Shown piece after piece: positions 1-23,223 of a stretch of 64,000 bases of DNA. The notes under the pieces are model-generated. The model worked only from the letters and a program-made list of their open reading frames with translations, was not told the DNA's origin and did not search any database. The position numbers were made by a program, and so were the translations under genes. Source of the stretch: Roseovarius sp. A-2 (lineage in GTDB: Bacteria > Pseudomonadota > Alphaproteobacteria > Rhodobacterales > Rhodobacteraceae); the NCBI RefSeq assembly GCF_002072155.1, contig NZ_BDIY01000013.1, forward strand, positions 1-64,000, read 5' to 3'. Each line of letters starts with the position of its first letter. Position 1 is the first letter of the stretch.

Positions 1-326
1 ACTGGCCACATGAGGCGACAACGGGCATCAGGCATGCATTCCATTCGATCCGAAGGGGTGGGCGCTCAAGGGTCTCAGTCCCATAGACGGGAAACCATTC
101 CCCATCGGTGACTTCTTCAGCGGCCTGTTAGGGGTCCACCGGCCAGAATGGCGACATGAAATTCACCCAGAGCCCCTATTGAGATACAGACCAAGTAACT
201 TGGCACTGCCGCTTCGGATTTGATTTGGTCTGCGACGTTTCATTATCGATAATGCTGTTTTAGCCGCCGCATCTGGCGGAACCGGATTGCGCCCTCTATT
301 GTCCGTTAGGATTGCGAGGACAAATA
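1..326. other. Unassigned leading stretch
   Basis: No gene could be supported here. Short open frames run in from the left edge and stop within about 110 bases, and none resembles a family I recognise. The only structured element is the palindrome at 241-254, described separately. The stretch probably holds the end of an unseen neighbouring feature plus the promoter region of the GntR gene. Confidence 0.5.
241..254. promoter_or_regulatory. 14-bp perfect palindrome upstream of the GntR gene
   Basis: The sequence CATTATCGATAATG is its own reverse complement and ends 72 bases before the ATG of the FCD-type GntR gene. GntR regulators of this subfamily often bind short palindromes in their own promoters, so this is a candidate autoregulatory operator. 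That role is inferred from position and symmetry alone. Confidence 0.4.
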
Positions 327-989
327 ATGAATGCCAACGCGGAAACATCGCTATCGGGCGCCGAAAGCCTGAACGCGACAGTTTATGCTGACCTTTGCGT
401 CAAGCTGATCACGGGCGTGTTAAAGCCCGCCGAAGCGGTTTCTGTCCGCAAGCTTGCGGAAAGCTACGGTGTTTCAACGATGCCGGTACGCGAAGCACTC
501 AGGCAACTGGCATCAGAAGGGGCGTTGAACTCTGCCGCACGCAAGGCTTACCGCGTCCCTGACCTGACCACAAAAGAGGCCTCAGACCTTTTCTTTGTCA
601 GGGGCGTTTTAGAGGGGGCCGCTGCGGAAATAGCCGCGCAACGCATCACGGCCAAAACCCTGTCAAGATTGCAGAAATCCGTGGAAAAGACCCATCGTCA
701 CCTGGAAGCCCGCGACGCATCCGGGTTTTTACTGGCCAACTACGAGTTTCACAGCACGATCTATCACTGCAGCGACAATAGCGTGCTCGTGCTAAGCATT
801 GACCGCTTATATGTGCAAACAGGTCCGTGGCTTGCGCATGGAATTGAAAATCTGGTGAATGCGGACAACTGGCTTGGGGAACATGAGCTGATCATCGACG
901 CCCTGCGCGATGGAGACGCCAAAACCGCACGCCGGTTGATAGAAGAAGACGCGTTTTGGGGCTGCGAACTTTACCGCCACAACGACTGA
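327..989 (+). CDS. GntR family regulator, FCD (FadR-like) subfamily
   Basis: Cytoplasmic DNA-binding regulator of about 220 residues. The N-terminal winged helix-turn-helix is visible as VRKLAESYGVSTMPVREALR, followed by the all-helical FCD ligand domain with spaced Asp/His residues (FHSTIY, GEHELI) that bind a metal and carboxylate effector in this subfamily. The ATG at 327 is preferred over the upstream TTG at 312 because GCGAGGA lies just before it. The next metabolic genes downstream are the ankyrin gene and a Rieske oxygenase on the same strand, so it may control that oxygenase. The effector cannot be read from the sequence. Confidence 0.85.
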   Translation: MNANAETSLSGAESLNATVYADLCVKLITGVLKPAEAVSVRKLAESYGVSTMPVREALRQLASEGALNSAARKAYRVPDLTTKEASDLFFVRGVLEGAAAEIAAQRITAKTLSRLQKSVEKTHRHLEARDASGFLLANYEFHSTIYHCSDNSVLVLSIDRLYVQTGPWLAHGIENLVNADNWLGEHELIIDALRDGDAKTARRLIEEDAFWGCELYRHND

Positions 990-1899: not shown

Positions 1900-3057
1900 A
1901 TGCAAGCGACAAAGCCACGTGACGCCCAAGATCTGCGCCAGCACCTGACCGACCTCACCTCAAAATCAAAGGATGACGCCTATAGCATGCCGTCGGATTT
2001 CTATACGTCCGAAGCATTCTTGGAACTTGAGAAGGAACAGATTTTCCGCCGCGAATGGGTCTGCATCGGTCATGTCGGAGAGGTCGCCAATCCGGGCGAT
2101 TTTTACACGACTGAACTGTTGGGAGAGCAGCTTCTGGTCGCGCGCGACGATGAAGGTACGATCAACGTTCTGTCCAATGTTTGCCGTCACCGCGGAAACC
2201 TTGTCGTAAACGAAGACAGCGGCAATCGCCGTAGTTTTGTATGCCCCTATCACGCATGGACATACGCGCGCGATGGTGCTCTGAAAACGGCACCTTTGAT
2301 GAAAAAGGCAAAGGCATTTGATGCGGCCAAATGCAGCCTGCCAAAACTCGCGACAGAGATCTGGAACAACTTCATCTTTGTAAATCTGGACGGCACGGCA
2401 AAGCCACTGGCCCCACAATTGGCGTCACTGGACGGTATTTTGCACAATTACCACCACGAACTGCGCAACCTGCTTTTCAAGGAAGACGCTGTTTGGGGTA
2501 CGAACTGGAAAAACCTGACCGAGAATTTCATGGAAGGGTATCACCTGTTTGCAACCCACCCGAAAACACTCCAGCCGATGACCCCAACGCAGCTGTGCCG
2601 CAAAGTCCCCGGCGAAGATCGTTGGACGGCCTATCGATCCTATTACGACCCCGAATTTCCGCCGCGCGGCCCGTTTCATGACGACATGACCGAGGACGAG
2701 CAACGCAACAGCGTGTTGTTCAACATCTTCCCCAGCTTTGTGGTGGCTGTGGCCGCGAACTATACGCTCTTCCTTTGTTTGCGTCCCAACGGCGTGGATA
2801 AGGTTTCGATCCGCTGGGGTGTATGTGGCCTGAAAACAGACCCGCTCGATCCCGAGGTCGTGGCCTATGTCGATCTGTGCAAAGCTTTCAACGCAGAAGA
2901 CAAGGAAAAGCTGGAAACTCTGCAGGCGGCCCAAAATACACGTTATTTCGGGGGTGGCCCATTGGCGCCCGACGATCTGGAAGGCACGATCTGGGACTTT
3001 CTGAAATATATGGAAGGGATGCTTGGCGCGAAAGACACGCCCATTGCAGCCGAATAA
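1900..3057 (+). CDS. Rieske non-heme iron oxygenase alpha subunit, betaine-demethylase type
   Basis: A 385-residue aromatic-ring-hydroxylating type oxygenase. The Rieske [2Fe-2S] ligands are C95/H97 (NVCRHRG) and C115/H118 (FVCPYHAWTY). The mononuclear iron ligands are H215 and H220 in ENFMEGYHLFATHP. Size and architecture fit the group that N-demethylates quaternary amines (glycine betaine and proline betaine demethylases) or oxidises choline and carnitine, releasing formaldehyde in the demethylase cases. The ATG at 1900 is chosen over the GTG at 1855 because ACGGAGC precedes it and the palindrome would otherwise lie inside the gene. The reductase gene converges on it and frmA lies beyond. 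The substrate is not known; the hut context suggests a methylated histidine. Confidence 0.85.
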   Translation: MQATKPRDAQDLRQHLTDLTSKSKDDAYSMPSDFYTSEAFLELEKEQIFRREWVCIGHVGEVANPGDFYTTELLGEQLLVARDDEGTINVLSNVCRHRGNLVVNEDSGNRRSFVCPYHAWTYARDGALKTAPLMKKAKAFDAAKCSLPKLATEIWNNFIFVNLDGTAKPLAPQLASLDGILHNYHHELRNLLFKEDAVWGTNWKNLTENFMEGYHLFATHPKTLQPMTPTQLCRKVPGEDRWTAYRSYYDPEFPPRGPFHDDMTEDEQRNSVLFNIFPSFVVAVAANYTLFLCLRPNGVDKVSIRWGVCGLKTDPLDPEVVAYVDLCKAFNAEDKEKLETLQAAQNTRYFGGGPLAPDDLEGTIWDFLKYMEGMLGAKDTPIAAE

Positions 3058-3063
3058 AAAGAC

Positions 3064-3092
3064 ATCGCGCGCCCGACCAACGGGCGCGCGAT
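3064..3092. terminator. Bidirectional intrinsic terminator between oxygenase and reductase genes
   Basis: A perfect 12-bp stem (ATCGCGCGCCCG / CGGGCGCGCGAT) with a 5-base loop ACCAA, followed by TTTTCTTT on the plus strand. It sits between the convergent stop codons at 3057 and 3098 and can serve both transcripts. Confidence 0.85.
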
Positions 3093-3097
3093 TTTCT

Positions 3098-4303
3098 TTA
3101 CAAGAGTGATTTCAGCGCGGTATCCGGCGAGGCAATCATATCAGGAGCAGGGGATTTCCCCGCCTCGATCAGGCGTTTGCCAACCATAAACTCACGCGGC
3201 GCATTCATCGCATCCACCGCCAGCAGGTTTACACCCCGATAATACCAATGCGACACAGCGCCGGGTTTGTCGCCTGAACGGGTGACAACGGCATCATAGC
3301 CCGTGTTCAACCCGGCAATCTGCAACTTCACATCATACTGGTCAGACCAAAACCACGGTTTGGCGACATAGGGCGCATTGGCCCCCATGATATTCGCGGC
3401 AACCGCTTCTGCCTGATCAATAGCGTTTGGCACGCTTTCAAGACGAATGCGCGCCTCACCTAGCGGGAAAGACGCACAATCGCCCGCGGCCCAGATATCC
3501 GCCACGGAGGTTTTGCCAAACGCGTCGGTGCTGATTCCGTTGTCGATGGTTAGCCCAGCAGATTGGGCCAGTGCGGTGTTGGGGCGAATGCCGATGCCTG
3601 CAATGACAAAATCAACATCCAGCGTTTGCCCGTCACTCAAGACAGCTTGCGTTACCTCGGTGTCGCCCATCAGTTTCGCAAGCCCCACCCCCTCGAGGAT
3701 ATTCACACCGTGGCTTTGATGAAGCGCACGAAAGTAATCCGCGGTTTGTGGCGATGCGACACGTTGCAAGATACGCTCGGCCATTTCGACAACGGTGACA
3801 TTCAATCCAAGCTTTGCAGCAACGGCGGCCGCTTCCAACCCGATATACCCGCCGCCCACAATCAAGGCACGTTTTCCTGTGGCGAAATGCGGTGCCATCG
3901 CATCAATATCGCCAAGTGTTCTGACACAATAAACACCCTTTAGATCGCCGCCAATCTGCGCAGGCAATCGGATCGGGCTTGAGCCTGTTGTAAGGACCAG
4001 TGTGTCATAATCCACCTGCTCATCCCCGACCGTCAGACGGCGCGCACCGGGGTCAATGGCCGTTACTGCCCCCCCCATACGCACGGCGATATCCGCTTCA
4101 TCATAGGCCGATTGCGGACGCAAAAACAGGCGCTCCCGCGTCATATCCCCCAACAGATAGGCCTTGGACAAGGGCGGGCGCTGATACGGCAGGTCAGGCT
4201 CGTCGCCGATCAGGGTAATCGCCCCGGTATGCTTGAGGGCGCGCAATTTGAACGCCAAAGCGCTTGCCGCCTGCCCCGCTCCGACAACGACGATATGTTT
4301 CAT
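3098..4303 (-). CDS. FAD-dependent NAD(P)H:ferredoxin-type reductase
   Basis: A 401-residue pyridine nucleotide-disulfide family oxidoreductase of the ferredoxin/putidaredoxin reductase group. The FAD-binding GxGxxG is at the N-terminus (VVVGAGQAASALAF) and an NAD-binding GGGYIGLEAAA lies mid-protein, followed by the IWAAGDCA motif that contacts FAD. No redox-active CxxxxC is seen, as expected for oxygenase-coupled reductases. The ATG at 4303 follows GAAGGAAGA, so the upstream in-frame start is less likely. The gene lies 37 bases behind frmA on the same strand, and the two probably form an operon. I infer that it feeds electrons to the Rieske oxygenase at 1900, perhaps through a ferredoxin not in the window. 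Confidence 0.8.
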   Translation of the reverse strand: MKHIVVVGAGQAASALAFKLRALKHTGAITLIGDEPDLPYQRPPLSKAYLLGDMTRERLFLRPQSAYDEADIAVRMGGAVTAIDPGARRLTVGDEQVDYDTLVLTTGSSPIRLPAQIGGDLKGVYCVRTLGDIDAMAPHFATGKRALIVGGGYIGLEAAAVAAKLGLNVTVVEMAERILQRVASPQTADYFRALHQSHGVNILEGVGLAKLMGDTEVTQAVLSDGQTLDVDFVIAGIGIRPNTALAQSAGLTIDNGISTDAFGKTSVADIWAAGDCASFPLGEARIRLESVPNAIDQAEAVAANIMGANAPYVAKPWFWSDQYDVKLQIAGLNTGYDAVVTRSGDKPGAVSHWYYRGVNLLAVDAMNAPREFMVGKRLIEAGKSPAPDMIASPDTALKSLL

Positions 4304-4340
4304 GAAATCTTCCTTCGGCAAGAAGCAGGCGGTTTGATGA

Positions 4341-5456
4341 TCAGAATTCCACCACGGCGCGGATGGATTTGCCCTGATGCATCAGCTCGAACCCCTCGTT
4401 GATCTGATCAAGCGTCAACTTGTGCGTGATCATCGGGTCAATCTCGATCTTACCGTTCATGTACCAATCCACGATCTTGGGCACGTCTGTACGGCCCTTG
4501 GCCCCACCAAACGCCGTGCCGCGCCAGACACGCCCCGTGACCAATTGGAATGGACGGGTGGAAATCTCGGCCCCCGCTGCGGCCACGCCGATGATGATGC
4601 TTTCGCCCCAGCCCTTATGGGCGGCCTCAAGCGCGTCGCGCATGACCTTGGTGTTGCCCGTGGCGTCAAAGGTATAATCAGCCCCACCGCCGGTCAACTC
4701 AACCAGATGCGCCACCAGATCACCGTCGATCTTGGAGGGATTCACGAAATCGGTCATCCCGAAATACTTGCCCGTTTCTTCTTTGTCGTCGTTCAGATCA
4801 ACGCCCACGATCTGATCCGCACCCGCAAGGCGCAGCCCCTGGATCACGTTAAGGCCAATCCCCCCCAGACCAAACACCACGCAACGCGCGCCGATCTCGA
4901 CCTTGGCCGTGTTGATCACCGCACCAATGCCGGTGGTCACGCCGCAGCCGATGTAACAAATCTTGTCAAACGGCGCGTCCTTGCGCACTTTGGCCAGCGC
5001 AATTTCCGGCACAACCGTATGGTTGGCAAAGGTCGAACAGCCCATGTAATGGTGGATCGGCGTGCCATCCAGCATGGAAAACCGCGTCGTGCCATCGGGC
5101 AATTGTCCACGCCCTTGGGTGATCCGGATCGCTTGGCACAGGTTGGTTTTCCCGCTCAGGCAATAGTCGCATTCACGGCATTCAGGCGTATAGAGCGGGA
5201 TCACATGATCGCCCGGCTCCAGCGTCGTGACGCCCTCGCCCACCTCCAACACAATGCCCGCGCCTTCATGGCCGAGGATCGCGGGGAATATCCCTTCGGG
5301 GTCGTCGCCAGAGCGGGTGAATTCATCTGTATGGCACAGCCCGGTGGCCTTGATCTCAACCAGGACCTCGCCACGCTTTGGGCCTTCAAGATTGACCTCC
5401 ATGATTTCAAGCGGTTTACCTGCTTCTACGGCAACGGCGGCGCGGGTTCTCATCAT
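4341..5456 (-). CDS. frmA: S-(hydroxymethyl)glutathione dehydrogenase (class III alcohol dehydrogenase)
   Basis: A 371-residue zinc MDR enzyme that oxidises the formaldehyde-glutathione adduct to S-formylglutathione. Catalytic zinc ligands C41 (GLCHTDEF) and H63 (LGHEGAG) and the structural zinc lobe C93/C96/C99/C107 (PECRECDYCLSGKTNLC) are intact, as is the NAD-binding GLGGIGLNV. Length is typical of class III enzymes. GAGGAG precedes the two consecutive ATG codons at 5456 and 5453. The gene is divergent from hutD, and a HutC-like operator lies in the shared promoter. A formaldehyde dehydrogenase tied to histidine utilisation makes sense only if upstream steps release formaldehyde. Confidence 0.93.
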   Translation of the reverse strand: MMRTRAAVAVEAGKPLEIMEVNLEGPKRGEVLVEIKATGLCHTDEFTRSGDDPEGIFPAILGHEGAGIVLEVGEGVTTLEPGDHVIPLYTPECRECDYCLSGKTNLCQAIRITQGRGQLPDGTTRFSMLDGTPIHHYMGCSTFANHTVVPEIALAKVRKDAPFDKICYIGCGVTTGIGAVINTAKVEIGARCVVFGLGGIGLNVIQGLRLAGADQIVGVDLNDDKEETGKYFGMTDFVNPSKIDGDLVAHLVELTGGGADYTFDATGNTKVMRDALEAAHKGWGESIIIGVAAAGAEISTRPFQLVTGRVWRGTAFGGAKGRTDVPKIVDWYMNGKIEIDPMITHKLTLDQINEGFELMHQGKSIRAVVEF

Positions 5457-5478
5457 GGGGGATCTCCTCGAATTTTAT

Positions 5479-5486
5479 GTATAGAC
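5479..5486 (+). promoter_or_regulatory. HutC-like operator between frmA and hutD
   Basis: GTATAGAC matches the HutC-subfamily GntR consensus GTMTAKAC exactly. It lies 23 bases upstream of frmA and 84 bases upstream of hutD, in an AT-rich context (TTATGTATAGACTTAT). It could repress both divergent genes. Assignment rests on similarity to the known subfamily consensus and on recurrence in this window. Confidence 0.65.
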
Positions 5487-5569
5487 TTATTTTGATTTAG
5501 CATATTAATTAAAGTGCAGGCAGGGTTGGGTCAAGCAGTCTGTTTCAAAAAAGAAGAGGAGGTCATCCG

Positions 5570-6157
5570 ATGCGGATTCTGCACTTGAGCGCCCTGATCG
5601 ACGTTCCCTGGAAAAACGGTGGCGGCGTCACGCGCAATATCGCCAAGGGGATGCGCCGCGATCACGTGGTCTGGACAATCAGCCGCGCGGATGTGGCGCA
5701 GGACGGTGCGTTTTCGGATTTCTCCGGCATGATGCGGGTGCTGACCGTGGTGTCGGGCGGCGCGATGGTGCTCGACACCCCGAGCACCTCGCTGGAGGCA
5801 AACCTCTGGGAGCCGGTGCGCTTTGAGGGCGCCCTCAAGGTTCATTCGCGCCTGCAAGACGGCCCGTTGACCGACCTGAACCTGATGTTTGATCCGGCCC
5901 TGTGCGAGGGGGATGTGATCACGCACCGAGGGCCGCTTGACCAAATCGCCCGGCGGCCCATGCAGGGTATCCTCGCGTTTCATGTGCTTTCAGGTAATCC
6001 GATGATCAACGCGGCGCGACTGAGCACAGGCGACACCGCGTTGATTACAGAAACAGATGCGACACTGACCCTTGCCGACGGCGACGCCCTGCTTGAGATC
6101 CGTCTGACCTATCTGGATCAGAGCGATGCCATCAGGCTCTGCATGGCTGAACGATAG
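5570..6157 (+). CDS. hutD: HutD family protein
   Basis: A 195-residue cupin-fold protein of the HutD family, recognisable by VPWKNGGGVTRNIA near the N-terminus. HutD is not an enzyme of the histidine pathway. It is reported to fine-tune hut expression or limit intermediate levels. GGAGG lies 7 bases before the ATG. The last 40 bases overlap the 3' end of the convergent hutF, an unusually tight arrangement. Confidence 0.88.
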   Translation: MRILHLSALIDVPWKNGGGVTRNIAKGMRRDHVVWTISRADVAQDGAFSDFSGMMRVLTVVSGGAMVLDTPSTSLEANLWEPVRFEGALKVHSRLQDGPLTDLNLMFDPALCEGDVITHRGPLDQIARRPMQGILAFHVLSGNPMINAARLSTGDTALITETDATLTLADGDALLEIRLTYLDQSDAIRLCMAER

Positions 6158-7476
6158 GCTGCGGTAATTTCATCGCGCCGGATGTGGCGGCCCGATTGCA
6201 CAGCATGTCGCCCGGCGGACCAGACATCGGTGACAACCCCATCCTTGGCCGCGAACACCAAACCATCAAGAAGCTGGTCACGGCGCAGGGCACAAAGCGC
6301 TGCGGCCTTGCTGTCAATCGCGGCCAGATCGGCCAGCTCACCGACGGCAATCTCACCTGCGCCACGGCCAAGCGCCTGCGCGCCGCCTTTGGCCGCGCCG
6401 GTATATAATGTGTCGCCAACCGAGCCTTCGCCAACAACCATCACATTGCGCGCAACGTCACGCAGGCGTTGGGAATATTCCAGGGTGCGCAATTCTTCGG
6501 TCAGCGAGATCAGGACGTTTGAATCAGAGCCGATGCCGAATGCGCCCCCGGCCCCGAGATAGGCGGGGCCATTGAACGGCCCGTCGCCAAGGTTGGCCTC
6601 GGTCACCGGACAAAGCCCGGCAACCGCGCCGGATCTGGCCATTTCAGTGGTTTCATCCGGCGTCATGTGGGTGGCATGGATCAGGCACCAGTCCGGCGTC
6701 ACATTCGTATTCGCCAGCAACCACTCGACAGGTCGCGCGCCCAGCCAAGCCTGAATGTCCACAACTTCCTTGGGCTGCTCGGCGATGTGGATGTGAATCG
6801 GTCCCGCCGGGTGGGCGCTCAGGACCGAAACCAGATCATCGGGCGATGTGGCGCGCAGGGAATGCGGCGCAATCCCGACGCGGCAATCGGCAGGCAAGTT
6901 CGCAACAGCGACCCTGGCCCGCGCCACCAGATCGTTGAACCGATCCACCGTATTGCCAAACCGCGCCTGCCCCGCCTCAAGCGGCACCTGTCCCGCCCCA
7001 CCATAACTATAGAGAACCGGCAGGTGGGTCAGCCCGATGCCGGTGGTTGCCGCCGCCGCCGCGATGCGCGCCGACAGTTCACCCAAGTCGTCATAGGGCG
7101 TTCCGCCGGGTTGGTGATGCAGATAGTGAAACTCGCCGACGCTGGCATAGCCCGCTTCCTGCATCTCCAGAAAGACAAGACCGGCGATGGCTTCGATATG
7201 CTCCGGCGTCAGGGTTGCGGTAAATCGATACATCAACTCGCGCCATGTCCAGAAGCTGTCTTTGCCCGCCATGCGATATTCGGTCATCCCCGCCATCGCC
7301 CGCTGAAAGCTATGGCTGTGCAGGTTGGCAAGCGCGGGCAACAGCGTATCGACGCACACGTCCGCGGCCTGCGGCTGTTGATCGGTCTCGACCCTGGTGA
7401 TCCGGCCATTTTCGACCTCAATCCGAACGTTATCGGCCCAACCACCGGGCAGTCTGGCAAGCGATGCAAAGATCAT
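6118..7476 (-). CDS. hutF: Formimidoylglutamate deiminase
   Basis: A 452-residue amidohydrolase-superfamily metalloenzyme that converts N-formimidoyl-L-glutamate to N-formyl-L-glutamate and ammonia. Together with HutG it forms the five-step route, instead of direct formimidase cleavage by a HutG-type arginase-fold enzyme. The metal motif HSHSFQR (ANLHSHSFQRAMAG), a HIHIAEQ segment and the late GIGSDSNVL aspartate motif are present. The ATG at 7476 has GAGAG upstream; an ATG at 7491 is the alternative. The gene is divergent from hutI across a HutC-like operator. Confidence 0.92.
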   Translation of the reverse strand: MIFASLARLPGGWADNVRIEVENGRITRVETDQQPQAADVCVDTLLPALANLHSHSFQRAMAGMTEYRMAGKDSFWTWRELMYRFTATLTPEHIEAIAGLVFLEMQEAGYASVGEFHYLHHQPGGTPYDDLGELSARIAAAAATTGIGLTHLPVLYSYGGAGQVPLEAGQARFGNTVDRFNDLVARARVAVANLPADCRVGIAPHSLRATSPDDLVSVLSAHPAGPIHIHIAEQPKEVVDIQAWLGARPVEWLLANTNVTPDWCLIHATHMTPDETTEMARSGAVAGLCPVTEANLGDGPFNGPAYLGAGGAFGIGSDSNVLISLTEELRTLEYSQRLRDVARNVMVVGEGSVGDTLYTGAAKGGAQALGRGAGEIAVGELADLAAIDSKAAALCALRRDQLLDGLVFAAKDGVVTDVWSAGRHAVQSGRHIRRDEITAAYRSAMQSLMASL

Positions 7477-7496
7477 TTGGCTCTCTTTCATTTTTT

Positions 7497-7510
7497 ATGT
7501 GTAGACATAT
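7497..7510 (+). promoter_or_regulatory. HutC-like operator between hutF and hutI
   Basis: ATGTGTAGACATAT contains GTGTAGAC, one mismatch from GTMTAKAC, flanked by symmetric ATGT/ACAT arms. It lies in the divergent promoter of hutF (minus strand) and the hutIHGU operon (plus strand), where HutC is expected to act. Confidence 0.7.
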
Positions 7511-7549
7511 TGCACATTAACGCGTACCAGAAAAGGCGAATTCTGACCA

Positions 7550-8773
7550 ATGGTGAATGAAATGACTGAGAATCACAGGGTCTTCGTCGATCTGACTGCT
7601 GCGACCATGAGTGCGACGCAAACGGCCTATGGTTTGGTCGAAGATGCGGCCATCGCGGTGAGCGACGGACGGATTGACTGGGTCGGCGCGCGCAACGACC
7701 TGCCCACGCAATATGCGGACCTTGAGCAACAATCGCTTGGTGGCCGCCTTGTCACCCCCGGTTTGATCGACTGTCACACTCATATCGTGCATGGTGGTGA
7801 CCGCGCCGTGGAATTCGAGATGCGCCTGAACGGGGCCAGCTATGAAGAGGTCGCGCGCGCCGGTGGCGGGATCGTGTCCACCGTCAAGGCCACCCGCGCC
7901 GCGAGCGAGGATCTATTACTGACCGACGCGCTGCGCCGCGTCGATGTCTTGATGTCCGAGGGTGTGACCAGCATCGAGATCAAATCGGGTTATGGCCTGG
8001 ATATCGAAACCGAGCTGCGCATGCTGCGCGTCGCCCGCGCGGTCATGGCAAACCGCCGCATCCGCGTAAAGACCACCTTTCTTGGGGCCCACGCGACCCC
8101 GGCCGAATATGCCGGGCGCAATGATGCCTATATCGACGAGGTCTGCATCCCGGCCCTGCGCGCGGCGCATGCCGAAGGGCTGGTCGATGCGGTCGACGGG
8201 TTCTGCGAAGGCATCGCGTTTCAGCCCGACCAGATCGCCCGCGTCTTCGACGTGGCCCGCGACCTCGGCTTGCCGGTCAAGCTTCATGCCGAGCAATTGT
8301 CCAACCTTGGCGGTGCTAAACTGGCGGCGCAATATGGCGCACTGTCTGCTGATCATATCGAGTATCTGGACGAGGATGGTGTCAAGGCGATGGCCAAGGC
8401 GGGCACCGTGGCCGTCATCCTGCCCGGCGCGTTCTATACCCTGCGCGAAACGCAAGAGCCGCCGATTGATCTCTTGCGCAAGCACGGCGTGCCGATGGCC
8501 CTGGCCACCGATATCAACCCCGGCTCATCGCCACTCAATTCCCTGCTGCTGACGCTGAACATGGGCTGCACCCTGTTTCGCATGACCCCCGAAGAGGCCC
8601 TGCGCGGCGCCACCGCAAACGCCGCGCGCGCGCTTGGTTTGACGGATGTCGGCACCATCGCGCCCGGCATGCGCGCCGAAATGGCGGTATGGGATATCAA
8701 ACACCCTGCCGAACTGGCCTATCGCATCGGCTTCAACCCCCTACATTCCCGCATTTTCGGAGGCATATCGTGA
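7550..8773 (+). CDS. hutI: Imidazolonepropionase
   Basis: A 407-residue zinc amidohydrolase that opens imidazolone-5-propionate to N-formimidoyl-L-glutamate. The metal site [10 protein letters not shown], the family segment [18 protein letters not shown] and the late [10 protein letters not shown] motif are all present. The start is either ATG 7550 or ATG 7562, and neither has a strong ribosome-binding site. The stop overlaps the hutH start (GTGA), so translation is probably coupled. It is the first gene of the hutIHGU operon. Confidence 0.94.
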
Positions 8774-10308
8774 CCACACTTACCCTCACCCCCGGCGCTG
8801 TCACGCTGGATGATCTGGCCGAAATTTTCTGGAATGAGGCATCGGTGCGCCTTGATCCCGCGTGCCACCCGGCCATTGAACTTGCCCATTCCCGCATCGC
8901 AAAGGCGGTTGCCGGGACCGATGCGGTTTATGGCGTTAACACCGGTTTTGGCAAGCTGGCCTCGGTCAAAATCGAATCCAAAGACACCGCCACGCTTCAG
9001 CGCAATCTGATCCTGTCCCATTGCTGTGGTGTTGGCCCGGCGATTTCGCGCCGTCATGCGCGTTTGCTGATGGCGCTCAAATTGCTCAGCCTCGGGCGCG
9101 GCGCATCCGGTGTGCGGCTGGAGGTTGTCACGCTGATCGAGGCAATGCTGGACAAGGGCGTGACACCGGTCATTCCCGCGCAAGGCTCGGTCGGCGCGTC
9201 GGGCGATCTTGCCCCGCTGGCGCATATGGCGGCGGTGATGATGGGCCATGGCGAGGCCGAGTTTGACGGGCAGGTCATGTCCGGAGACAAGGCATTGAAA
9301 GCGGCGGGTTTGACCCCGGTCGAGCTTGGCCCGAAAGAAGGGCTCGCGTTGATCAATGGCACACAGTTTTCCACCGCCTTCGCGCTTGCCGGTCTCTTTG
9401 GCGCATGGCGTGCTGCCCATTCGGCGCTTGTCACATCGGCCTTGTCGACGGACGCGATCATGGGGTCCACAGCGCCCTTGCAGCCCGAAATCCACGCCCT
9501 GCGCGGCCACCCTGGCCAGATAGAGGCGGGCGAAACCATGCGCGCGCTTTTGGCCGGCTCCGAGATCCGCGACAGCCATGTCGTCGATGACGCGCGGGTG
9601 CAGGACCCCTATTGCATCCGCTGCCAACCGCAGGTGACCGGCGCGGCGATGGATGTGCTGCGCATGGCGGCGCGCACGCTTGAGATTGAAGCGAATGCCG
9701 CCACAGATAATCCGCTTGTTCTGATCGAGGCGGACCTGATCGTGTCGGGCGGCAATTTCCACGCCGAGCCGGTTGGCTTTGCCGCCGATATGATCGCGCT
9801 TGCCATCGCCGAGATCGGCGCCATCGCGCAGCGCCGCGTGGCCCTGATTGTCGATCCGGTGCTGAGCTTTAACCTGCCGCCGTTCCTGACGCCCAATCCC
9901 GGCCTGAACTCTGGCTACATGATTGCCGAGGTCACCACTGCCGCCCTGATGAGCGAGAACAAGCATCTGGCAAACCCTTGTGTCACCGACAGCACGCCGA
10001 CCTCTGCCAACCAAGAAGACCACGTCAGCATGGCCGCCCATGGCGCGCGCCGCTTGGGTCAGATGATCGAAAACCTCAATCGTATTCTGGGGGTTGAGCT
10101 GCTCTGCGCCGCGCAAGGCATTGATTTCCGCGCCCCGCTGACAACCAGCGAGACCTTGCAGCGCGTTGTTGCACGGGTGCGTCGCGATGTGGCGACACTG
10201 GGCCAGGACCGCTACCTCGCGCCTGATCTGGAACGCGCCGCGGTGATGATCGCAGAGGGCGATATCGTCGCCGCCACGGGCGTCGCCATGCCGGGTGTTG
10301 CGGCATGA
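8770..10308 (+). CDS. hutH: Histidine ammonia-lyase
   Basis: A 512-residue lyase that deaminates L-histidine to trans-urocanate. The autocatalytic MIO cofactor triad A143-S144-G145 is seen in [14 protein letters not shown], at the family's usual position, with [11 protein letters not shown] near the N-terminus. The start is the GTG at 8770, preceded by CGGAGGC and overlapping the hutI stop; an in-frame upstream ATG at 8689 would lie deep inside hutI. The stop overlaps the ATG of hutG. Confidence 0.95.
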
Positions 10309-11105
10309 AACCCGTCGAGATTCAACAGGGCGACAGCCCGATTGTTCTGGGCTTGCCGCATACCGGCACCTTTGTGCCCGAGGATATCCTGGCCGACCTG
10401 AACCCGCGCGGACGTGGGCTGGATGACACCGACTGGCATATTCACAGGCTCTACGACGGTGTTCTGGCAGGCGCGACCACGGTACGTGCGACCTTCCACC
10501 GTTATGTGATTGACGCCAATCGCGACCCGTCAGGCGTCTCGCTCTATCCGGGGCAGAACACCACCGGCTTGGTCCCCCTGACCGATTTTGATGGTCATGA
10601 CATCTGGGCGACCCCGCCCACCGAAGCAGAGATAGAAGAGCGCCGCGAAACCTTTCACGCGCCCTATCACGCGGCGGTGCAGGCCGAGCTTGAACGGGTG
10701 CGCGATCTGCACGGCATCGCGATCTTGTATGATTGCCACTCCATCCGCTCAGGTATTCCGTTCCTGTTTGACGGCACCCTGCCCGACTTCAACATCGGCA
10801 CCAATCTGGGCAGCACCTGCGCGCCCGAGATTGAAGCGGCCACGCAAGACATTTGCGCCGCTGCCGAGGGCTATACCTCAATCACCAATGGCCGTTTCAA
10901 AGGCGGCTGGACCACCCGTCACTATGGCCGCCCCACCGAGGGGTTGCACGCCATCCAGATGGAATTGGCGCAAAGCACCTATCTGAGCGCCGAGACCGCG
11001 CCGTGGGGCTATGACGAAGACAAAGCCGCGCGCCTGCGCCCTCACCTCACATCTATTCTGACGAAACTGGCCGCCCTGGCCCCGACCCTGAAAGGCACAT
11101 CATGA
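10305..11105 (+). CDS. hutG: N-formylglutamate deformylase
   Basis: A 266-residue N-formylglutamate amidohydrolase that completes the HutF route, giving L-glutamate and formate. Family landmarks include the N-terminal [13 protein letters not shown], the [16 protein letters not shown] segment with its metal-binding Asp/His, and the MELAQSTYL segment near the C-terminus. It overlaps hutH and hutU by ATGA junctions, so the operon is translationally coupled. Confidence 0.93.
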
Positions 11106-12769
11106 GCGATCCGCGCAAGAACACCCGTGACGTTTTTCCCGCCACCGGCACCGAGTTGACGGCCAAAAGCTGGCTTACCGAAGCGCCGCTGCGGATGTTG
11201 ATGAACAACCTGCACCCCGACGTCGCCGAAAACCCGCATGAATTGGTGGTTTATGGCGGTATTGGCCGTGCTGCACGCACCTGGAAGGATTACGACATGA
11301 TCGTCGCCTCGCTGCGCGCGCTGGAGGACGACCAAACCCTTCTGGTGCAATCGGGCAAGCCTGTCGGCGTGTTCCAGACCCACAAGGATGCACCGCGCGT
11401 CTTGATCGCGAATTCCAATCTGGTGCCGCATTGGGCCACATGGGATCATTTCAACGAGCTCGATAAAAAGGGTCTGGCCATGTACGGCCAGATGACCGCC
11501 GGGTCGTGGATCTACATCGGTAGCCAAGGCATCGTGCAGGGCACATACGAGACCTTTGTCGAGGCGGGCCGCCAGCATTATGATGGCGATCTCAAAGGCA
11601 AATGGATCCTCACCGGCGGACTTGGCGGTATGGGCGGCGCACAACCCCTCGCGGCGGTGATGGCCGGGGCCTGCTGTCTGGCGGTCGAGTGCAACCCCGA
11701 CAGCATTGATTTCCGTCTGCGCACGAAATACGTCGACGAAAAGGCCGAAACGCTGGATGAAGCGCTTGAGATGATCGAACGCTGGACCAAGGCCGGCGAG
11801 GCGAAATCCGTGGCCCTGCTCGGCAATGCGGCGGATGTGTTCCCCGAACTGGTCAAACGCGGTGTGCGCCCCGATATCGTCACCGACCAGACCTCGGCGC
11901 ATGACCCGGTCAACGGCTACCTGCCGCAGGGCTGGACCATGGCGCAATGGAAAGACAAACGCGAAAGCGCGCCGAAAGAGGTCGAAAAGGCCGCACGCGC
12001 CAGCATGAAGGTGCAGGTCAAGGCGATGGTCGATTTCCACGCTGCCGGTATTCCGACCGTCGATTACGGCAACAACATCCGCCAGATGGCGCTGGAAGAA
12101 GGGCTGGAAAACGCCTTTGATTTCCCCGGCTTCGTGCCCGCCTATATTCGCCCGCTGTTCTGTCGCGGCATCGGCCCGTTCCGGTGGGCCGCCTTGTCGG
12201 GCGACCCCGAGGACATCTACAAAACCGACGCCAAAGTGAAAGAGATCCTGGCCGAGGACTCGCATCTGCACAACTGGCTGGATATGGCCCGCGAGCGGAT
12301 TTCGTTTCAGGGCCTGCCTGCGCGGATCTGCTGGGTTGGTCTGGGCGTGCGCCACAAGCTGGGCCTTGCGTTCAACGAAATGGTGCGCAACGGCGAGCTT
12401 AGCGCGCCGATCGTGATTGGCCGCGATCATCTGGATTCAGGCTCGGTTGCCTCGCCCAACCGCGAGACCGAAGCGATGAAGGACGGCTCTGATGCGGTCA
12501 GCGACTGGCCTTTGCTCAACGCACTTCTCAACACCGCGTCGGGCGCGACATGGGTGTCGCTGCACCACGGTGGCGGTGTTGGCATGGGCTTTTCACAGCA
12601 CTCCGGCATGGTGATCTGTTGTGACGGCACCGAGGATGCGGATCGCCGCATCGCACGGGTGTTGTGGAACGATCCCGCAACCGGCGTGATGCGCCACGCC
12701 GATGCGGGCTATGACGAGGCGCTCGAGTGCGCCCACGAGAATGGTTTGAACCTGCCGGGAATTCTCTGA
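11102..12769 (+). CDS. hutU: Urocanate hydratase
   Basis: A 555-residue NAD-dependent urocanase that converts urocanate to imidazolone-5-propionate. Typical segments include the tightly bound NAD Rossmann region [30 protein letters not shown], and the C-terminal [17 protein letters not shown]. Length matches the family. It is the last gene of hutIHGU and ends 44 bases before the convergent hutC stop, with a hairpin between. Confidence 0.95.
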
Positions 12770-12813: not shown

Positions 12814-13503
12814 TCAATAGCGCGTCGTCATCCGATGCCCGGGGCGATAGGACAGCTTGACATATGTAACGGCCTGCCCCTCCCACCAGGTCGACCGCTC
12901 CACGGTGAAAACCGGATCGCCGATCTTGCTGGCAAGATATTGCGACAGGTCCAGATCCACCAGCCCCGCCGAAAAGCTGATCTCGGCGTCGGAAAACGGG
13001 ATTGTGGCGACCAGCCATTCATTGGGCCCCGTCACCGCAAAATCGGCCTTTTCGGCCTGCGGCAGAACCGCGAGATTGATCCATCTGTCTTCATATTGAT
13101 AGGGGTCGCCATCGGCGTAATGCATGCACACCAGATGCACAACCCGGCCCCCCGGCGGTAATTTCAACCGCGCCCGGAGCCAGTCAGGCGCCTCCACCAC
13201 TGAGTGACTGACCAGAGAATAGCGGTACTGCGCGCCCTTTTCCTCGATCTCCCCGCGCACCAGCGGAATATCGAACCGCGCCTGACGGACCGGGCTTTGA
13301 CGCACCCGCGTGCCCGCCTTGCGACGGCGCTCGATGATGCCATCATCGGCAAGCTCGCGCATGGCACGGTTCACGGTGGCACGGGCACAGCCATATATCC
13401 CCGCAAGCTCGATTTCGTTGGGAATAAAACTTCCAGGCCCCCATTCCCCCCTGGTGATCTTTGACAGGATGTCGGTTTTGACGTCTCTATAGGTGACTTT
13501 CAT
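12814..13503 (-). CDS. hutC: Histidine utilisation repressor, GntR/HutC family
   Basis: A 229-residue GntR regulator with an N-terminal winged helix (ELAGIYGCARATVNRAMREL) and a C-terminal UTRA effector domain, which in HutC binds urocanate and releases the operators. The ATG at 13503 (MKVTYRDVK) is chosen over 13563 because an operator-like sequence would otherwise fall inside the gene. HutC-like sites at frmA/hutD, hutF/hutI, the peptide permeases and the binding protein suggest a regulon larger than hut itself. Confidence 0.92.
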   Translation of the reverse strand: MKVTYRDVKTDILSKITRGEWGPGSFIPNEIELAGIYGCARATVNRAMRELADDGIIERRRKAGTRVRQSPVRQARFDIPLVRGEIEEKGAQYRYSLVSHSVVEAPDWLRARLKLPPGGRVVHLVCMHYADGDPYQYEDRWINLAVLPQAEKADFAVTGPNEWLVATIPFSDAEISFSAGLVDLDLSQYLASKIGDPVFTVERSTWWEGQAVTYVKLSYRPGHRMTTRY

Positions 13504-13527
13504 AACTGACCAATTCTTTTGCTTTGC

Positions 13528-13535
13528 GTATAGTT
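13528..13535 (+). promoter_or_regulatory. Weak HutC-like site upstream of hutC
   Basis: GTATAGTT has two mismatches to GTMTAKAC and lies 24 bases before the chosen hutC start. It could allow autorepression. This is the weakest of the set. Confidence 0.35.
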
Positions 13536-13600
13536 CATTTGCACCTGCGCGATTGTCGTACATCTGCCAGACCCGCCCCCCCCTTTGAAACCGCTTGAAA

Positions 13601-13613: not shown

Positions 13614-13671
13614 GGTCTCACAGTTGAGCTGCACTTGACGCCGAGTACCAGTTCGCCTCACTCTCCTATTA

Positions 13672-13684
13672 ATCTAGACATAAT
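13672..13684 (+). promoter_or_regulatory. HutC-like site before the peptide permease operon
   Basis: ATCTAGACATAAT lies 27 bases upstream of the permease start. Its last ten bases (TAGACATAAT) are identical to the site at 21521-21530 before the binding-protein gene and nearly match the hutF/hutI site. The palindromic core is TCTAGA. Confidence 0.5.
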
Positions 13685-13711
13685 GCAATCCTCCAAGACA
13701 AAAGTGTGCAC

Positions 13712-14668
13712 ATGAACTCAATCCTGTCCATCGTCTTCAAACGTTTACTGATTGGTCTGCTGACTCTCTGGATTGTTACGGTCATTATCTTTGCCGCAAT
13801 CGAAATGCTGCCAGGTGACATCGCAACCGAAATGTTGGGCCAGGCAGCAACCGAAGAAAGCCTTGCGGCGTTTCGCGAAAAATTCGACCTAAACCGCCCG
13901 CTTCATGAACGGTATTTCTCTTGGCTGGCGGGGGCCGCAACAGGTGATTTCGGGATATCGCTGGCCAATCAACGCCCGATCTCAGAGTTGATCGGTCAAC
14001 GCACTGCAAATACTTTTTTCCTGGCTGGCTATGCCGCCGCAATCTCGGTGCCGATTGCCGTCGTATCCGGCATGATGGCCGCGCTTTACAACGGATCGGT
14101 GTTTGATCGCCTGCTCTCCAACTCAACGTTGGCGGCGATTTCCTTTCCTGAATTCTTTATCGCCTACATCCTGATCCTCATATTTTCCGTAGGGTTCGGT
14201 TGGTTCCCGAGCCTTGCCAATGTCGATGTCGATACGAGCTTGGGCGAGCGATTATACATAACCTTTCTACCGGCAATGACGCTGACGTTGATCGTTCTGG
14301 CCTATATGATGCGTATGACGCGGGCCGCGATCCTGAACCTCCTGGCGCTGCCCTATATCGAAATGGCCCACCTCAAGGGTATCAAACGCTGGCGCGTGAT
14401 CGCCGTGCATGCGCTTCCCAATGCCCTTGCTCCGATCATCAATGTGATCGCGCTGAACCTTGCCTATCTGATTGTCGGCGTGGTTCTGGTCGAGGTGGTG
14501 TTTGTCTATCCGGGTCTTGGGCAAACACTGGTGGACGCTGTATCCAAACGCGATGTGACGGTCGTGCAAGCGGCATGTCTGATCTTCGCCGCGACGTACA
14601 TCCTGCTCAATCTACTGGCAGACATTTTGTCGATCATCGCAAACCCACGCCTTCTACATCCGAGATAA
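13712..14668 (+). CDS. Peptide/opine-type ABC transporter permease (DppB-like)
   Basis: A 318-residue inner-membrane permease with about six transmembrane helices. The N-terminal helix (RLLIGLLTLWIVTVIIFAAI) and periplasmic EKFDLNRPLHERYFSWLAGA segment are typical of DppB/OppB, and the EAA loop region (AHLKGIKRWRVIAVHALPNA) contacts the ATPase. The start is ATG 13712 or GTG 13706; no clear ribosome-binding site decides. It is the first gene of a permease-permease-ATPase-deacylase operon whose binding protein is encoded separately at 21590. HutC-like and LysR-like sites precede it. Confidence 0.88.
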   Translation: MNSILSIVFKRLLIGLLTLWIVTVIIFAAIEMLPGDIATEMLGQAATEESLAAFREKFDLNRPLHERYFSWLAGAATGDFGISLANQRPISELIGQRTANTFFLAGYAAAISVPIAVVSGMMAALYNGSVFDRLLSNSTLAAISFPEFFIAYILILIFSVGFGWFPSLANVDVDTSLGERLYITFLPAMTLTLIVLAYMMRMTRAAILNLLALPYIEMAHLKGIKRWRVIAVHALPNALAPIINVIALNLAYLIVGVVLVEVVFVYPGLGQTLVDAVSKRDVTVVQAACLIFAATYILLNLLADILSIIANPRLLHPR

Positions 14669-14671
14669 CAT

Positions 14672-15529
14672 ATGCATAATCTGTTTCTTCAGCTTCGCGA
14701 TGCGCCTGTTTCGGCCTGGGTCGGCATGTTAATCGTCGCCTTCTACGCGATCATTGCGATTGGCGCGCCGCTGTTTGCCCCTTACGCAGAAAGCGCCTCT
14801 GTGGGCGCGCAATATCAACCCTGGACCGCCCCGCATTACCTGGGAACCGACATCTTGGGTCGGGATGTGTTGTCCCGCCTGATATACGGCGCACGCAATA
14901 CTGTCGGCATTGCGCTGGCGACAACGGCGCTCGCCTTTACGCTTGGGGCGGTTTTCGGGCTTTTGGCGGCGACCATTGGCGGTTGGTTTGACGTGATCGC
15001 CTCGCGGGCGGTTGATGTGCTGATGGCGATCCCGCCGCTGATTTTCGCGCTGCTTATCCTCACGATAACAGGCACCTCTGTTGTCGCCCTGATCGTCGTC
15101 ATCGCCGTGTTGGACAGTACGCGGGTCTTCCGCCTGTCGCGCGCCGTGGCACAGGGGATTTTGACGATGGATTATATCGAAGTCGCACGCATGCGCGGTG
15201 AGGGCCTGTTTTGGCTGATCCGCAAAGAGGTCCTGCCCAATGCAGCGGCCCCTTTGATTGCGGAATTTGGCTTGCGGTTTTGTTTTGTGTTTCTGTTTAT
15301 CTCGGCGCTGTCCTTCCTTGGCCTTGGCATACAGCCCCCAACCGCTGATTGGGGTGGCATGGTGCGTGAAAGTGCAAAGCTGATCTCTTTTGCGAATTTC
15401 AGCACATGGCAAACCGCCACCTTTGGCCTTGCGCCCTTGCTCCCCGCCGGGGCCATCGCGTTGCTGACGATTGGCGTGAACCTTGTTGTGGATTGGGTTT
15501 TGCATATGTCATCCGGCCTGAAGGAATAA
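14672..15529 (+). CDS. Peptide/opine-type ABC transporter permease (DppC-like)
   Basis: A 285-residue DppC/OppC-type permease. The family segment GTDILGRDVLSRLIYGAR and the coupling loop VARMRGEGLFWLIRKEVLPN are present, along with GLGIQPPTADWGGMV near the C-terminus. It starts 3 bases after the DppB-like stop and ends 3 bases before the ATPase start. Confidence 0.9.
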   Translation: MHNLFLQLRDAPVSAWVGMLIVAFYAIIAIGAPLFAPYAESASVGAQYQPWTAPHYLGTDILGRDVLSRLIYGARNTVGIALATTALAFTLGAVFGLLAATIGGWFDVIASRAVDVLMAIPPLIFALLILTITGTSVVALIVVIAVLDSTRVFRLSRAVAQGILTMDYIEVARMRGEGLFWLIRKEVLPNAAAPLIAEFGLRFCFVFLFISALSFLGLGIQPPTADWGGMVRESAKLISFANFSTWQTATFGLAPLLPAGAIALLTIGVNLVVDWVLHMSSGLKE

Positions 15530-15532
15530 AGC

Positions 15533-17161
15533 ATGTCAGATATTTTGCTCGATATGAAAAATGTCGCCATCGAAGGGTACTCCGACAGGCAATGGAAGCC
15601 GATTATCAAAGGCGTCGATCTGAGCCTGAAACGCGGTGAAATTCTGGGCCTGATCGGCGAAAGCGGTGCGGGAAAATCAACACTTGGACTGGCCGCGATG
15701 GGCTATACCAAGGGCGGTTGCCGGATCAGCGGCGGGCAAATCATGTTTGACGGCCAAGACCTGACCACCGCCTCGCGCAATTCATTGCGCAAGTTGCGCG
15801 GCAAACGCATTGCTTATGTCGCGCAATCGGCCGCCTCGGCGTTCAATCCCGCTTTCAAACTTATCAATCAGTATTGCGAGGCCCCCGTCCAGCATGGCGT
15901 CATGTCGAAAGCTCAGGCGCAATCGGACGCGGTGGAGCTTTACCGAAAAATCCGCCTGCCAGATCCCGACACCATCGGGTTTCGCTACCCGCATCAGGTG
16001 TCTGGCGGCCAGTTGCAAAGGGCCATGACGGCCATGGCCATGGCCTGCCGACCGGACCTGATCATTTTTGACGAACCGACAACGGCGTTGGATGTCACCA
16101 CCCAGATCGAGGTTCTGGCCGCCATCCGCGACATCGTTCGCGAATATAATACCGCTGCGATCTATATCACGCATGATCTTGCCGTCGTTGCGCAGATGGC
16201 CGACCAGATCAAGGTGCTGCTGCGCGGAGAAGAGGTTGAACAGGCCCCTGCCCGTGAAATGCTCGCCAATCCGCAGCAGACCTATACCAAGTCGTTATGG
16301 GCCGTGCGTGACTTTCGCCGGGCACCGCGCCCGCCCCGCGAGGACGGTGAGAGTACTCTGCTGGACGTCAAAGGCATGGATGCGTCCTATGGCACCACCA
16401 AAGTGCTGGATAATATCAATCTGACCATCAAGCGCGGCAGCACGGTCGCCGTTGTCGGGGAAAGCGGATCGGGAAAATCCACCCTTGCACGGGTGATCAT
16501 GGGCCTGCTGCCACCGATTGAAGGCGAAGTCATATACGACGGTGTGCCGCTCCAGAAAGTTGGCGCAAAACGTGCACGCGGGTTGCAGCGTCACCTTCAG
16601 ATGATCCATCAAATGGCCGATACGGCGCTCAACCCCAAACAGCGGATCAAAGATGTCATCGGCCGCCCCCTGACGTTTTTCCTTGGCCTGAAGGGGGCCG
16701 CGAAAGAGGCCCGCATCAGAGAGCTGTTGACGTTGATCGAACTTGACCCCGACGTTTTCATGAACCGCTTTCCATCCGAGCTGTCAGGTGGGCAAAAACA
16801 ACGTGTCTGTATCGCTCGCGCCTTGGCGGCGGAGCCCGATTTCATCATCTGCGATGAGGTTACTTCGGCATTGGACCAACTGGTCGCAGAAGGAATTTTA
16901 CGCTTGTTGGACCGCCTGCAACGAGAACTGGATTTGACCTATTTGTTTGTCACGCATGATATTGCGACGGTCCGTTCCATCGCGGATGACGTCGTCGTCA
17001 TGCAAAACGGAAAGATTGTTGAACAAGGCCCCAAGGACGAGATTTTCGCCCCCCCGCACGCCCCCTATACCGAACTTCTGCTGTCCTCGGTGCCGGAAAT
17101 GGATCCTGACTGGCTGACGGACCTTCTGGAAGAACGCATGACAGCAGAGCAAAGCCAATGA
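15533..17161 (+). CDS. Fused double ABC ATPase of the peptide transporter (DppD-DppF type)
   Basis: A 542-residue protein carrying two complete nucleotide-binding domains. The first has Walker A GESGAGKST, signature VSGGQLQRA and Walker B DLIIFDEPTT. The second has GESGSGKST, LSGGQKQRV and DFIICDEVTS. One polypeptide therefore replaces the separate DppD and DppF, an arrangement common in Rhizobiales and Rhodobacterales. The stop overlaps the deacylase start by ATGA, so the deacylase is translationally coupled to the importer. Confidence 0.92.
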   Translation: MSDILLDMKNVAIEGYSDRQWKPIIKGVDLSLKRGEILGLIGESGAGKSTLGLAAMGYTKGGCRISGGQIMFDGQDLTTASRNSLRKLRGKRIAYVAQSAASAFNPAFKLINQYCEAPVQHGVMSKAQAQSDAVELYRKIRLPDPDTIGFRYPHQVSGGQLQRAMTAMAMACRPDLIIFDEPTTALDVTTQIEVLAAIRDIVREYNTAAIYITHDLAVVAQMADQIKVLLRGEEVEQAPAREMLANPQQTYTKSLWAVRDFRRAPRPPREDGESTLLDVKGMDASYGTTKVLDNINLTIKRGSTVAVVGESGSGKSTLARVIMGLLPPIEGEVIYDGVPLQKVGAKRARGLQRHLQMIHQMADTALNPKQRIKDVIGRPLTFFLGLKGAAKEARIRELLTLIELDPDVFMNRFPSELSGGQKQRVCIARALAAEPDFIICDEVTSALDQLVAEGILRLLDRLQRELDLTYLFVTHDIATVRSIADDVVVMQNGKIVEQGPKDEIFAPPHAPYTELLLSSVPEMDPDWLTDLLEERMTAEQSQ

Positions 17162-20492: not shown

Positions 20493-20507
20493 GTTTAGAT
20501 TTTCTAA
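20493..20507 (-). promoter_or_regulatory. LysR-like dyad upstream of the VanA-type gene
   Basis: A 5-3-5 dyad, TTAGATTTTCTAA, at 20495-20507. On the minus strand it includes AGAAAATCTAAAC, identical to 13601-13613 before the permease operon. It overlaps the LysR stop codon and lies about 90 bases before the oxygenase start. Confidence 0.4.
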
Positions 20508-21467: not shown

Positions 21468-21517
21468 ACTCTCCAAAACTGATTTGTCACCCGTAATGTT
21501 GCCCCATACCGTATTAA

Positions 21518-23146: not shown

Positions 23147-23163
23147 AATATGAACCACACATG

Positions 23164-23193: not shown

Positions 23194-23223
23194 GCGCTTT
23201 CAAACCACCGGGAACCCATAGAA

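Follow-up and report, generated by a model that had tools for sequence, protein, structure and literature searches.

Gene content of the frmA-hut locus

We analysed a 64,000-nucleotide stretch of the Roseovarius sp. A-2 genome (contig NZ_BDIY01000013.1, positions 1 to 64,000, forward strand; hereafter the window), in which frmA, a gene for glutathione-dependent formaldehyde dehydrogenase, lies divergent from hutD in a histidine utilization (hut) cluster that also contains two Rieske oxygenases, here called RieskeA and RieskeB. The gene families, gene order and predicted operator sites suggest that the frmA-reductase operon is one part of a cluster, under HutC control, through which some methylated derivative of histidine enters the normal hut pathway, a reading to which we give a probability of about 0.62. 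The features on which it turns are as follows.

3098-4321, minus strand: red, ferredoxin reductase, second gene of the frmA operon (Pfam Pyr_redox_2 and Reductase_C)
4341-5456, minus strand: frmA, S-(hydroxymethyl)glutathione / glutathione-dependent formaldehyde dehydrogenase (TIGR02818)
5476-5489: predicted HutC-type operator between frmA and hutD, palindrome TATGTATAGACTTA (matrix rank 2 in the window)
5570-6157, plus strand: hutD (Pfam HutD, 117 bits)
6118-7491, minus strand: hutF, formimidoylglutamate deiminase (TIGR02022, over cut-off)
7496-7509: predicted HutC-type operator between hutF and hutI (matrix rank 1)
7550-12769, plus strand: hutI-hutH-hutG-hutU (TIGR01224, TIGR01225, TIGR02017 and TIGR01228, over cut-offs)
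12814-13563, minus strand: hutC repressor (TIGR02018, 268 bits; cut-off 220)
13669-13682: weaker predicted HutC-type site between hutC and the ATP-binding cassette (ABC) operon (matrix rank 4)
21515-21528: predicted HutC-type site before the substrate-binding protein (SBP) operon (matrix rank 3)

FrmA scored 603.4 bits against TIGR02818, above the curated cut-off of 543.95, which places it in that family. The second gene of the operon, red, begins 19 bp beyond the end of frmA (37 bp if it begins at the ATG at 4303) and encodes a reductase of the HcaD/AndAa/putidaredoxin-reductase type, which matches putidaredoxin reductase in the PDB (1e-83) and, among the equivalogs shown in the family scan, reached the cut-off of none. 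HutF, HutI, HutH, HutG, HutU and HutC all exceed their curated cut-offs, and HutD was assigned through Pfam alone. A preliminary description of the locus had placed the frmA-reductase operon and hutD on a shared promoter region spanned by a single operator; its coordinates and gene names hold by family and gene order, and the 113-bp gap between the divergent genes does contain a palindrome of the kind found between hutF and hutI. A sigma-70 promoter scan of positions 3000-8000 found none.

We rejected red as a marker of the cluster, as relatives at E 1e-100 or better occur in 276 of 295 genomes of the family (own genome included), those listed being 61-69% identical. Among the sequences searched, closer relatives were found only in Paracoccus seriniphilus (77%) and Pacificibacter (79%), and at genus level (84 genomes) a threshold of 1e-185 was passed by the window's own genome alone.

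HutC-type operator sites

Apart from the window's own, the fetched loci include 14 different divergent hutF/hutI gaps, and each holds a palindrome within two mismatches of TATGTNTANACATA; in shuffled gaps the number averaged 0.15 and never exceeded 2 of 14. AGACAT emerged without any pattern as one of two six-letter words common to all 14. We built a site matrix from 10 of these gap sites, which had initially been found with a window-derived pattern; L278 and L280, which had two-mismatch matches only, were left out of the matrix, and a recheck made without this selection covered all 14 different gaps. Across all window positions the matrix scored 25.0 bits at 7496, 20.1 at 5476, 13.8 at 21515 and 10.9 at 13669, with a top score of 11.0 bits in the reversed-sequence control. 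The site at 13669 thus scores no better than chance and is retained for its location and because P. seriniphilus has a comparable site in the corresponding position. With at most one mismatch allowed, the 4.58 Mb genome contains three copies of the palindrome, two of which fall within this hut cluster, and the backward control contains none.

The frmA/hutD site is retained in P. seriniphilus as TTTGTATAGACTTA, is weaker in the genome locus G248 (TATGTATGTACTTA), and appears in the corresponding gap of Pacificibacter marinus only as a degenerate two-mismatch version. The site before the SBP operon is matched in Mameliella and P. yeei by counterparts with one mismatch in the equivalent position. 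From position and conservation, we infer that these palindromes are HutC sites.

RieskeB and redB recur beside hut genes

Beyond hutC lie the genes of a putative uptake and demethylation module.

13706-17161, plus strand: Dpp/Opp-type ABC transporter, two permeases and a fused ATPase (open reading frames and P. seriniphilus homology)
17158-18216, plus strand: AstE/AspA-family deacylase, DoeB-like (Pfam AstE_AspA_cat; PDB DoeB, 2e-46)
18221-19363, minus strand: redB, FAD/NAD/[2Fe-2S] reductase, probable RieskeB partner (Pfam FAD_binding_6, NAD_binding_1 and Fer2)
19365-20405, minus strand: RieskeB, VanA/DdmC-type Rieske oxygenase (Pfam Rieske and VanA_C; Rieske and iron-site motifs)
20504-21415, minus strand: LysR regulator (Pfam)
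21590-25707, plus strand: SBP, GlcD-like FAD oxidase (FADox) and HisC-like aminotransferase (Pfam/NCBIfam)

The transporter was named from the open reading frame list and from 87-92% identity to annotated ABC permeases and ATPase of P. seriniphilus. RieskeB has the Rieske plus VanA_C architecture of VanA/DdmC-type enzymes and, in this window, shares with them a neighbouring reductase; it differs from them in its hut linkage and in bearing only a moderate likeness to dicamba O-demethylase (DdmC; 2e-40, 142 bits), its strongest PDB match being 7qwt (158 bits), named merely Rieske protein. Methyl removal by demethylases of the VanA/DdmC type releases formaldehyde.

Among 51 matching plasmid records, nine carried RieskeB at 79.9% or above, and in the stretches read five of the nine had hut genes and two had frmA. 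Plasmid p599725 of P. seriniphilus keeps gntR-RieskeA-red-frmA-hutD-hutF-hutIHGU-hutC-ABC together with redB-RieskeB-LysR-SBP-FADox-HisC; the importer and redB are separated by three extra genes, a gene annotated argE lies upstream, and no AstE homologue was found in the stretches read. The stretch from this plasmid was wider than 10 kb, with hut and frmA lying ~9 to 17 kb from RieskeB. On plasmids of Pseudohalocynthiibacter, Mameliella, Leisingera caerulea and P. yeei, RieskeB-redB, the importer, SBP, FADox and a HisC-like gene lie beside a hutC-like gene and hut genes, with an AstE-like gene in three of the four and, in L. caerulea, HisC followed by frmA on the same strand. P. methylovorus has module genes and a hutC-like gene, the hut enzymes not being in range; Gemmobacter has module genes in another order with a hutC-like gene, and neither an AstE homologue nor hut enzymes in range.

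The genome set comprised 19 of 23 non-own RieskeB places, all at 76% or above. The four omitted places, at 61-62%, had no hut genes in range, and one of them (G038:C4) has frmA with RieskeA. Gemmobacter p2 is counted in the plasmid set and again here (as G361), and six RieskeB contigs end early (L274, L277, L280, L281, L286 and L288). Within ~10 kb of RieskeB, hut genes were present at six of the 19 loci (G208, G097, G366, G055, G038 and G248) and frmA at three (G211, G038 and G248), with RieskeB directly downstream of hutU on the same strand in G055, G208, G097 and G366. A rough estimate of random placement, which assumes 4 Mb genomes and ~1.5 frmA copies and ignores kinship and cut contigs, puts the chance of such linkage at 4e-9 for hut and 4e-4 for frmA.

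Some of these loci show possible decay: hutD is annotated in two pieces in Mameliella alba (L268, 6070-6596), as is redB in Sulfitobacter W027 (L266, 15044-16200). In a different context, two RieskeB relatives (77-78%; L282, 8649-10543, and L283, 9483-11373) share a neighbouring open reading frame of ~270 residues, alike over the 62 residues shown.

Recurrence of frmA beside hut genes and Rieske oxygenases

When the 80 loci most similar to the window's frmA were examined, one, in Pacificibacter, was linked to hut genes, and the other 79, some of them short contigs, had none in the stretch examined. A survey of 30 of the 49 hutD matches found frmA adjoining hutD at two of 29 non-own loci (G248 and G270) besides the window's own, and one plasmid, that of P. 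seriniphilus, also has the adjacency. The two genes are divergent in P. seriniphilus, Pacificibacter marinus and G248; G270 has a different frmA-hutD-hutC-like arrangement, with no Rieske match in the 19.9 kb read.

In G248, fghA-frmA is divergent from hutD and is joined by redB-RieskeB with no RieskeA match, the fghA product scoring 417 bits (cut-off, 282). Pacificibacter marinus keeps frmA-red by the hut genes, with RieskeA reduced to C-terminal pieces (L044, 12400-12751) and no close RieskeB (top match, 39%). In G038, frmA lies near RieskeB and hut genes (L287), and on another contig, without hut genes in the stretch, RieskeA stands directly upstream of a second frmA on the same strand (L158). 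The seven cluster-linked FrmA copies that were scanned, the window's and six others, all scored over the equivalog cut-off. The FrmA tree was rejected as a demonstration of common history: the three hut-linked copies that it contains form no group of their own and lie among 20 mostly Sulfitobacter-type rows, P. seriniphilus sits on a long branch, and the bootstrap is unsettled.

RieskeA and its local regulator

The other oxygenase lies on the far side of red, with the following features.

312-989, plus strand: GntR/FCD protein, probably the local regulator of RieskeA (Pfam GntR and FCD)
1866-1877: CTGTGATCACAG palindrome, probable GntR/FCD operator of RieskeA (only exact match within the window)
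1900-3057, plus strand: RieskeA, quaternary-ammonium-type (group V-like) Rieske oxygenase (Pfam Rieske and Ring_hydroxyl_A)
3064-3092: 12-pair hairpin between the convergent RieskeA and red, probable shared terminator

The RieskeA reading frame is listed from 1855, and we judged the ATG at 1900 to be the better start. A GntR/FCD orthologue, 76% identical, adjoins RieskeA in P. seriniphilus, and CTGTGATCACAG precedes RieskeA in eight of ten relatives checked, one of the remaining two stretches having ended at a contig end. The presence of this perfect palindrome upstream, both here and in those relatives, suggests that RieskeA is controlled by the neighbouring GntR/FCD protein, the probable regulator, and not by HutC. 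Terminator-like sites between 3000 and 8000 number 8 as against 4.2 in shuffles, so a lone hairpin of this kind is weak evidence.

In a profile search of the PDB with RieskeA the best match was CntA (7e-50), ahead of an uncharacterised protein and the entries for stachydrine demethylase, and the closest folds to its AlphaFold2 model (mean pLDDT 78.6; loop 215-231 below 50) were CntA and Stc2. RieskeA has its closest relatives by sequence and fold among CntA, GbcA and Stc2, and it departs from them in several respects. It scored 139.4 bits against NF058607, the model of the glycine betaine monooxygenase GbcA, far under the cut-off of 670, and the reductase near it is of the HcaD/putidaredoxin-reductase kind. 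Glu212, aligned to CntA E205 and invariant in 21 sequences, is the bridging glutamate expected of group V, and Phe210 occupies the position of CntA Tyr203. Gly213 and Leu216 replace the Cys-X-X-Cys pair near the iron, which passages of PMC10952381 describe as a feature of some group V members.

These properties raise the alternative that RieskeA, and not RieskeB, supplies the formaldehyde, acting on a quaternary ammonium substrate, for example hercynine (N-alpha-trimethylhistidine). The likeness to the quaternary-ammonium enzymes CntA and Stc2, with the bridging Glu212 and the aromatic Phe210, is in keeping with this, yet the cysteine pair common in group V is missing, and an aromatic residue at CntA position 203 marks clade Va, whose members are not of the methyl-removing clade Vb according to passages of PMC7948474. 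Relatives of RieskeA co-occur with MttB and DMGDH-like genes; against this, the hut cluster itself has no dimethylamine-type demethylase, the window's nearest identified DMGDH-like gene lying at 54895-57342. By position, RieskeA is convergent with the frmA operon here and directly upstream of frmA in G038, and Pacificibacter has kept frmA-red and a RieskeA remnant in the absence of a close RieskeB; the combination in G248 of fghA, frmA and hut genes with RieskeB is the converse case, and of the five RieskeB plasmids with hut linkage, four have no RieskeA match in their hut-linked stretches. We consider this alternative unlikely, and on the strength of G248 and of the plasmid stretches without RieskeA we demoted RieskeA as the sole formaldehyde source. 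RieskeB is likely the preferred formaldehyde-releasing demethylase of the cluster, because it is more often tied to hut genes and because the frmA-fghA-hut group of G248 is accompanied by it.

RieskeA also has relatives elsewhere. At five loci with relatives at 75-79% (L156, 4875-9969, together with L157, L160, L184 and L152), it is accompanied by a Dpp-type importer and by DMGDH-like and MttB-family genes, with an AstE-like gene in four and GntR in three; these loci likely represent a quaternary-amine cluster, without hut enzymes beyond a distant HutH homologue in L184. In L184 (7331-8818) and L163 (8401-9897), the neighbours of RieskeA and MttB include a protein of the HutH family with 25-26% identity to HutH. 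In HutH, an Ala-Ser-Gly triad forms the MIO cofactor; the triad is absent from both proteins, and identification of either as an ergothionase is unsupported, their HutH-family scores being under the cut-off only. A small ankyrin-repeat reading frame (1187-1573) lies between gntR and RieskeA in the window, and no gene is annotated there in P. seriniphilus.

A putative route from methylated histidine to the hut pathway

The hut reactions release formate and not formaldehyde, yet frmA adjoins a HutC-type site and Rieske oxygenases, and demethylation yielding histidine best explains this combination. The preliminary description had likewise read frmA beside hut as a sign of demethylation upstream of histidine, which the two oxygenases in the cluster, both from subfamilies that include demethylases, the recurrence of frmA and the HutC-type sites support by inference. 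It had also named a lack of conserved frmA-hutD adjacency as part of the outcome that would speak against the link; P. seriniphilus, Pacificibacter marinus and G248 provide that adjacency, but by the counts given above it is rare, so this objection is escaped in part.

Gene families, gene order, sites and recurrence come from the sequence; the demethylation, the substrate, the electron routing and all of the regulation are proposals built upon them. In the proposed route, the ABC importer would take up the compound, possibly in acylated or dipeptide form, and the AstE-like deacylase would open such a form, for example anserine; the pairing of importer and DoeB-like AstE deacylase suggests a substrate of this kind. 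RieskeB with redB would then oxidise an N-methyl group to give histidine and formaldehyde, and RieskeA would probably act on a second or related substrate or step, perhaps with red. FrmA would oxidise S-hydroxymethylglutathione, with FghA, encoded elsewhere, completing the step to formate, and the hut enzymes would consume the histidine. Urocanate, by relieving HutC, would switch on the importer, the hut genes and formaldehyde disposal jointly, with RieskeA answering to its own GntR. FADox and the HisC-like aminotransferase could convert imidazole-lactate-type compounds to histidine.

Our leading guess for the substrate is a ring-N-methylated histidine or its dipeptides. Tentatively, and with less assurance than for the general scheme, the locus may encode an undescribed, mobile Rhodobacterales pathway for tau- or pi-methylhistidine, perhaps supplied as anserine or balenine, that combines Dpp uptake, AstE-like hydrolysis, imidazole N-demethylation by RieskeB/redB, disposal of formaldehyde through a co-opted FrmA(-FghA), and the hut enzymes, all under HutC.

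Several observations weigh against demethylation feeding the hut pathway. Most RieskeB genome loci lack the expected partners: in range, 13 of 19 are without hut genes, 16 without frmA and 12 without either, several RieskeB genes looking solitary. Only three of the 19 have redB within ~10 kb (G119, G248 and G361), and the hutU-RieskeB operons are therefore without it. Thalassospira has only LysR-RieskeB-redB, with no hut genes in range, and RieskeB (94%) of Sulfitobacter W027, accompanied by a redB in two pieces and by homologues of the importer, lies next to carnitine genes, again with no hut genes in range. The loci that do carry the cluster are not independent, because common descent or transfer could account for the shared context of related plasmid genes. 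To the rarity of the exact frmA-hutD adjacency may be added a second FrmA, 88.7% identical, encoded elsewhere in the window's genome; FghA is also encoded elsewhere, and the hut-linked frmA is thus not the genome's only route for formaldehyde. No HutC-type site within two mismatches was found upstream of SBP in P. seriniphilus or in the frmA-hutD stretch of G270. N-demethylation offers no evident role for FADox and HisC, and no dedicated ferredoxin adjoins red, although Aminobacter has a Rieske-ferredoxin-red arrangement.

The known promiscuity of class III alcohol dehydrogenases permits a further alternative, that FrmA serves another reaction, such as S-nitrosoglutathione reduction or imidazole alcohol oxidation, with no demethylation implied. 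FADox and HisC do suggest 2-hydroxy/2-oxo acid chemistry; fghA beside frmA in the G248 hut cluster, the recurrence of frmA beside Rieske oxygenases and the equivalog-level scores of all seven cluster-linked FrmA copies point to formaldehyde instead, and make another function improbable. Still less probable is that chance or the shuffling of plasmids brought frmA next to hut, with no functional link: the adjacency is rare, and frmA may be a recent recruit because the hut-linked copies do not group by themselves within the mostly Sulfitobacter-type rows of the tree, but the operator in the frmA/hutD gap is kept in P. seriniphilus and, more weakly, in G248, and the same partnership is reached through different arrangements (L231, L271, L273 and L287).

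Relation to known systems

The proposed demethylation route would extend a familiar regulon. As in the HutC-regulated hut regulon of Proteobacteria, the window holds a complete set of hutC, hutD, hutF and hutIHGU with conserved palindromic sites; it adds the frmA-reductase pair, two Rieske oxygenases, a deacylase, an FAD oxidase and an aminotransferase. Additional members of Proteobacterial HutC regulons named in passages of PMC5343134 are transporters and his genes, and the word formaldehyde does not occur in the main text of that paper. The comparison suggests that the cluster is a variant of the hut regulon with formaldehyde disposal added. Among the literature matches listed, we found no published account of such a methylated-histidine pathway, which is weak evidence of absence, subscription literature being mostly outside this scope. 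Two other themes were set aside: homarine, for which nothing listed bore on the cluster, and ergothioneine breakdown.

If the proposed route is correct, a function would be assigned to a conserved, generically annotated and often plasmid-borne cluster of marine bacteria, candidate enzymes would be named for the breakdown of methylated histidine, and the hut regulon would reach into formaldehyde disposal. Should the substrate prove to be ring-N-methylhistidine, dipeptides of animal muscle and the turnover of eukaryotic actin would be linked to the C1 metabolism of marine bacteria.

Further along the window, a GMC oxidoreductase, a CoA-transferase and a BCCT transporter (39295-45317) may represent more betaine-type catabolism, as may the DMGDH-like oxidase mentioned above.

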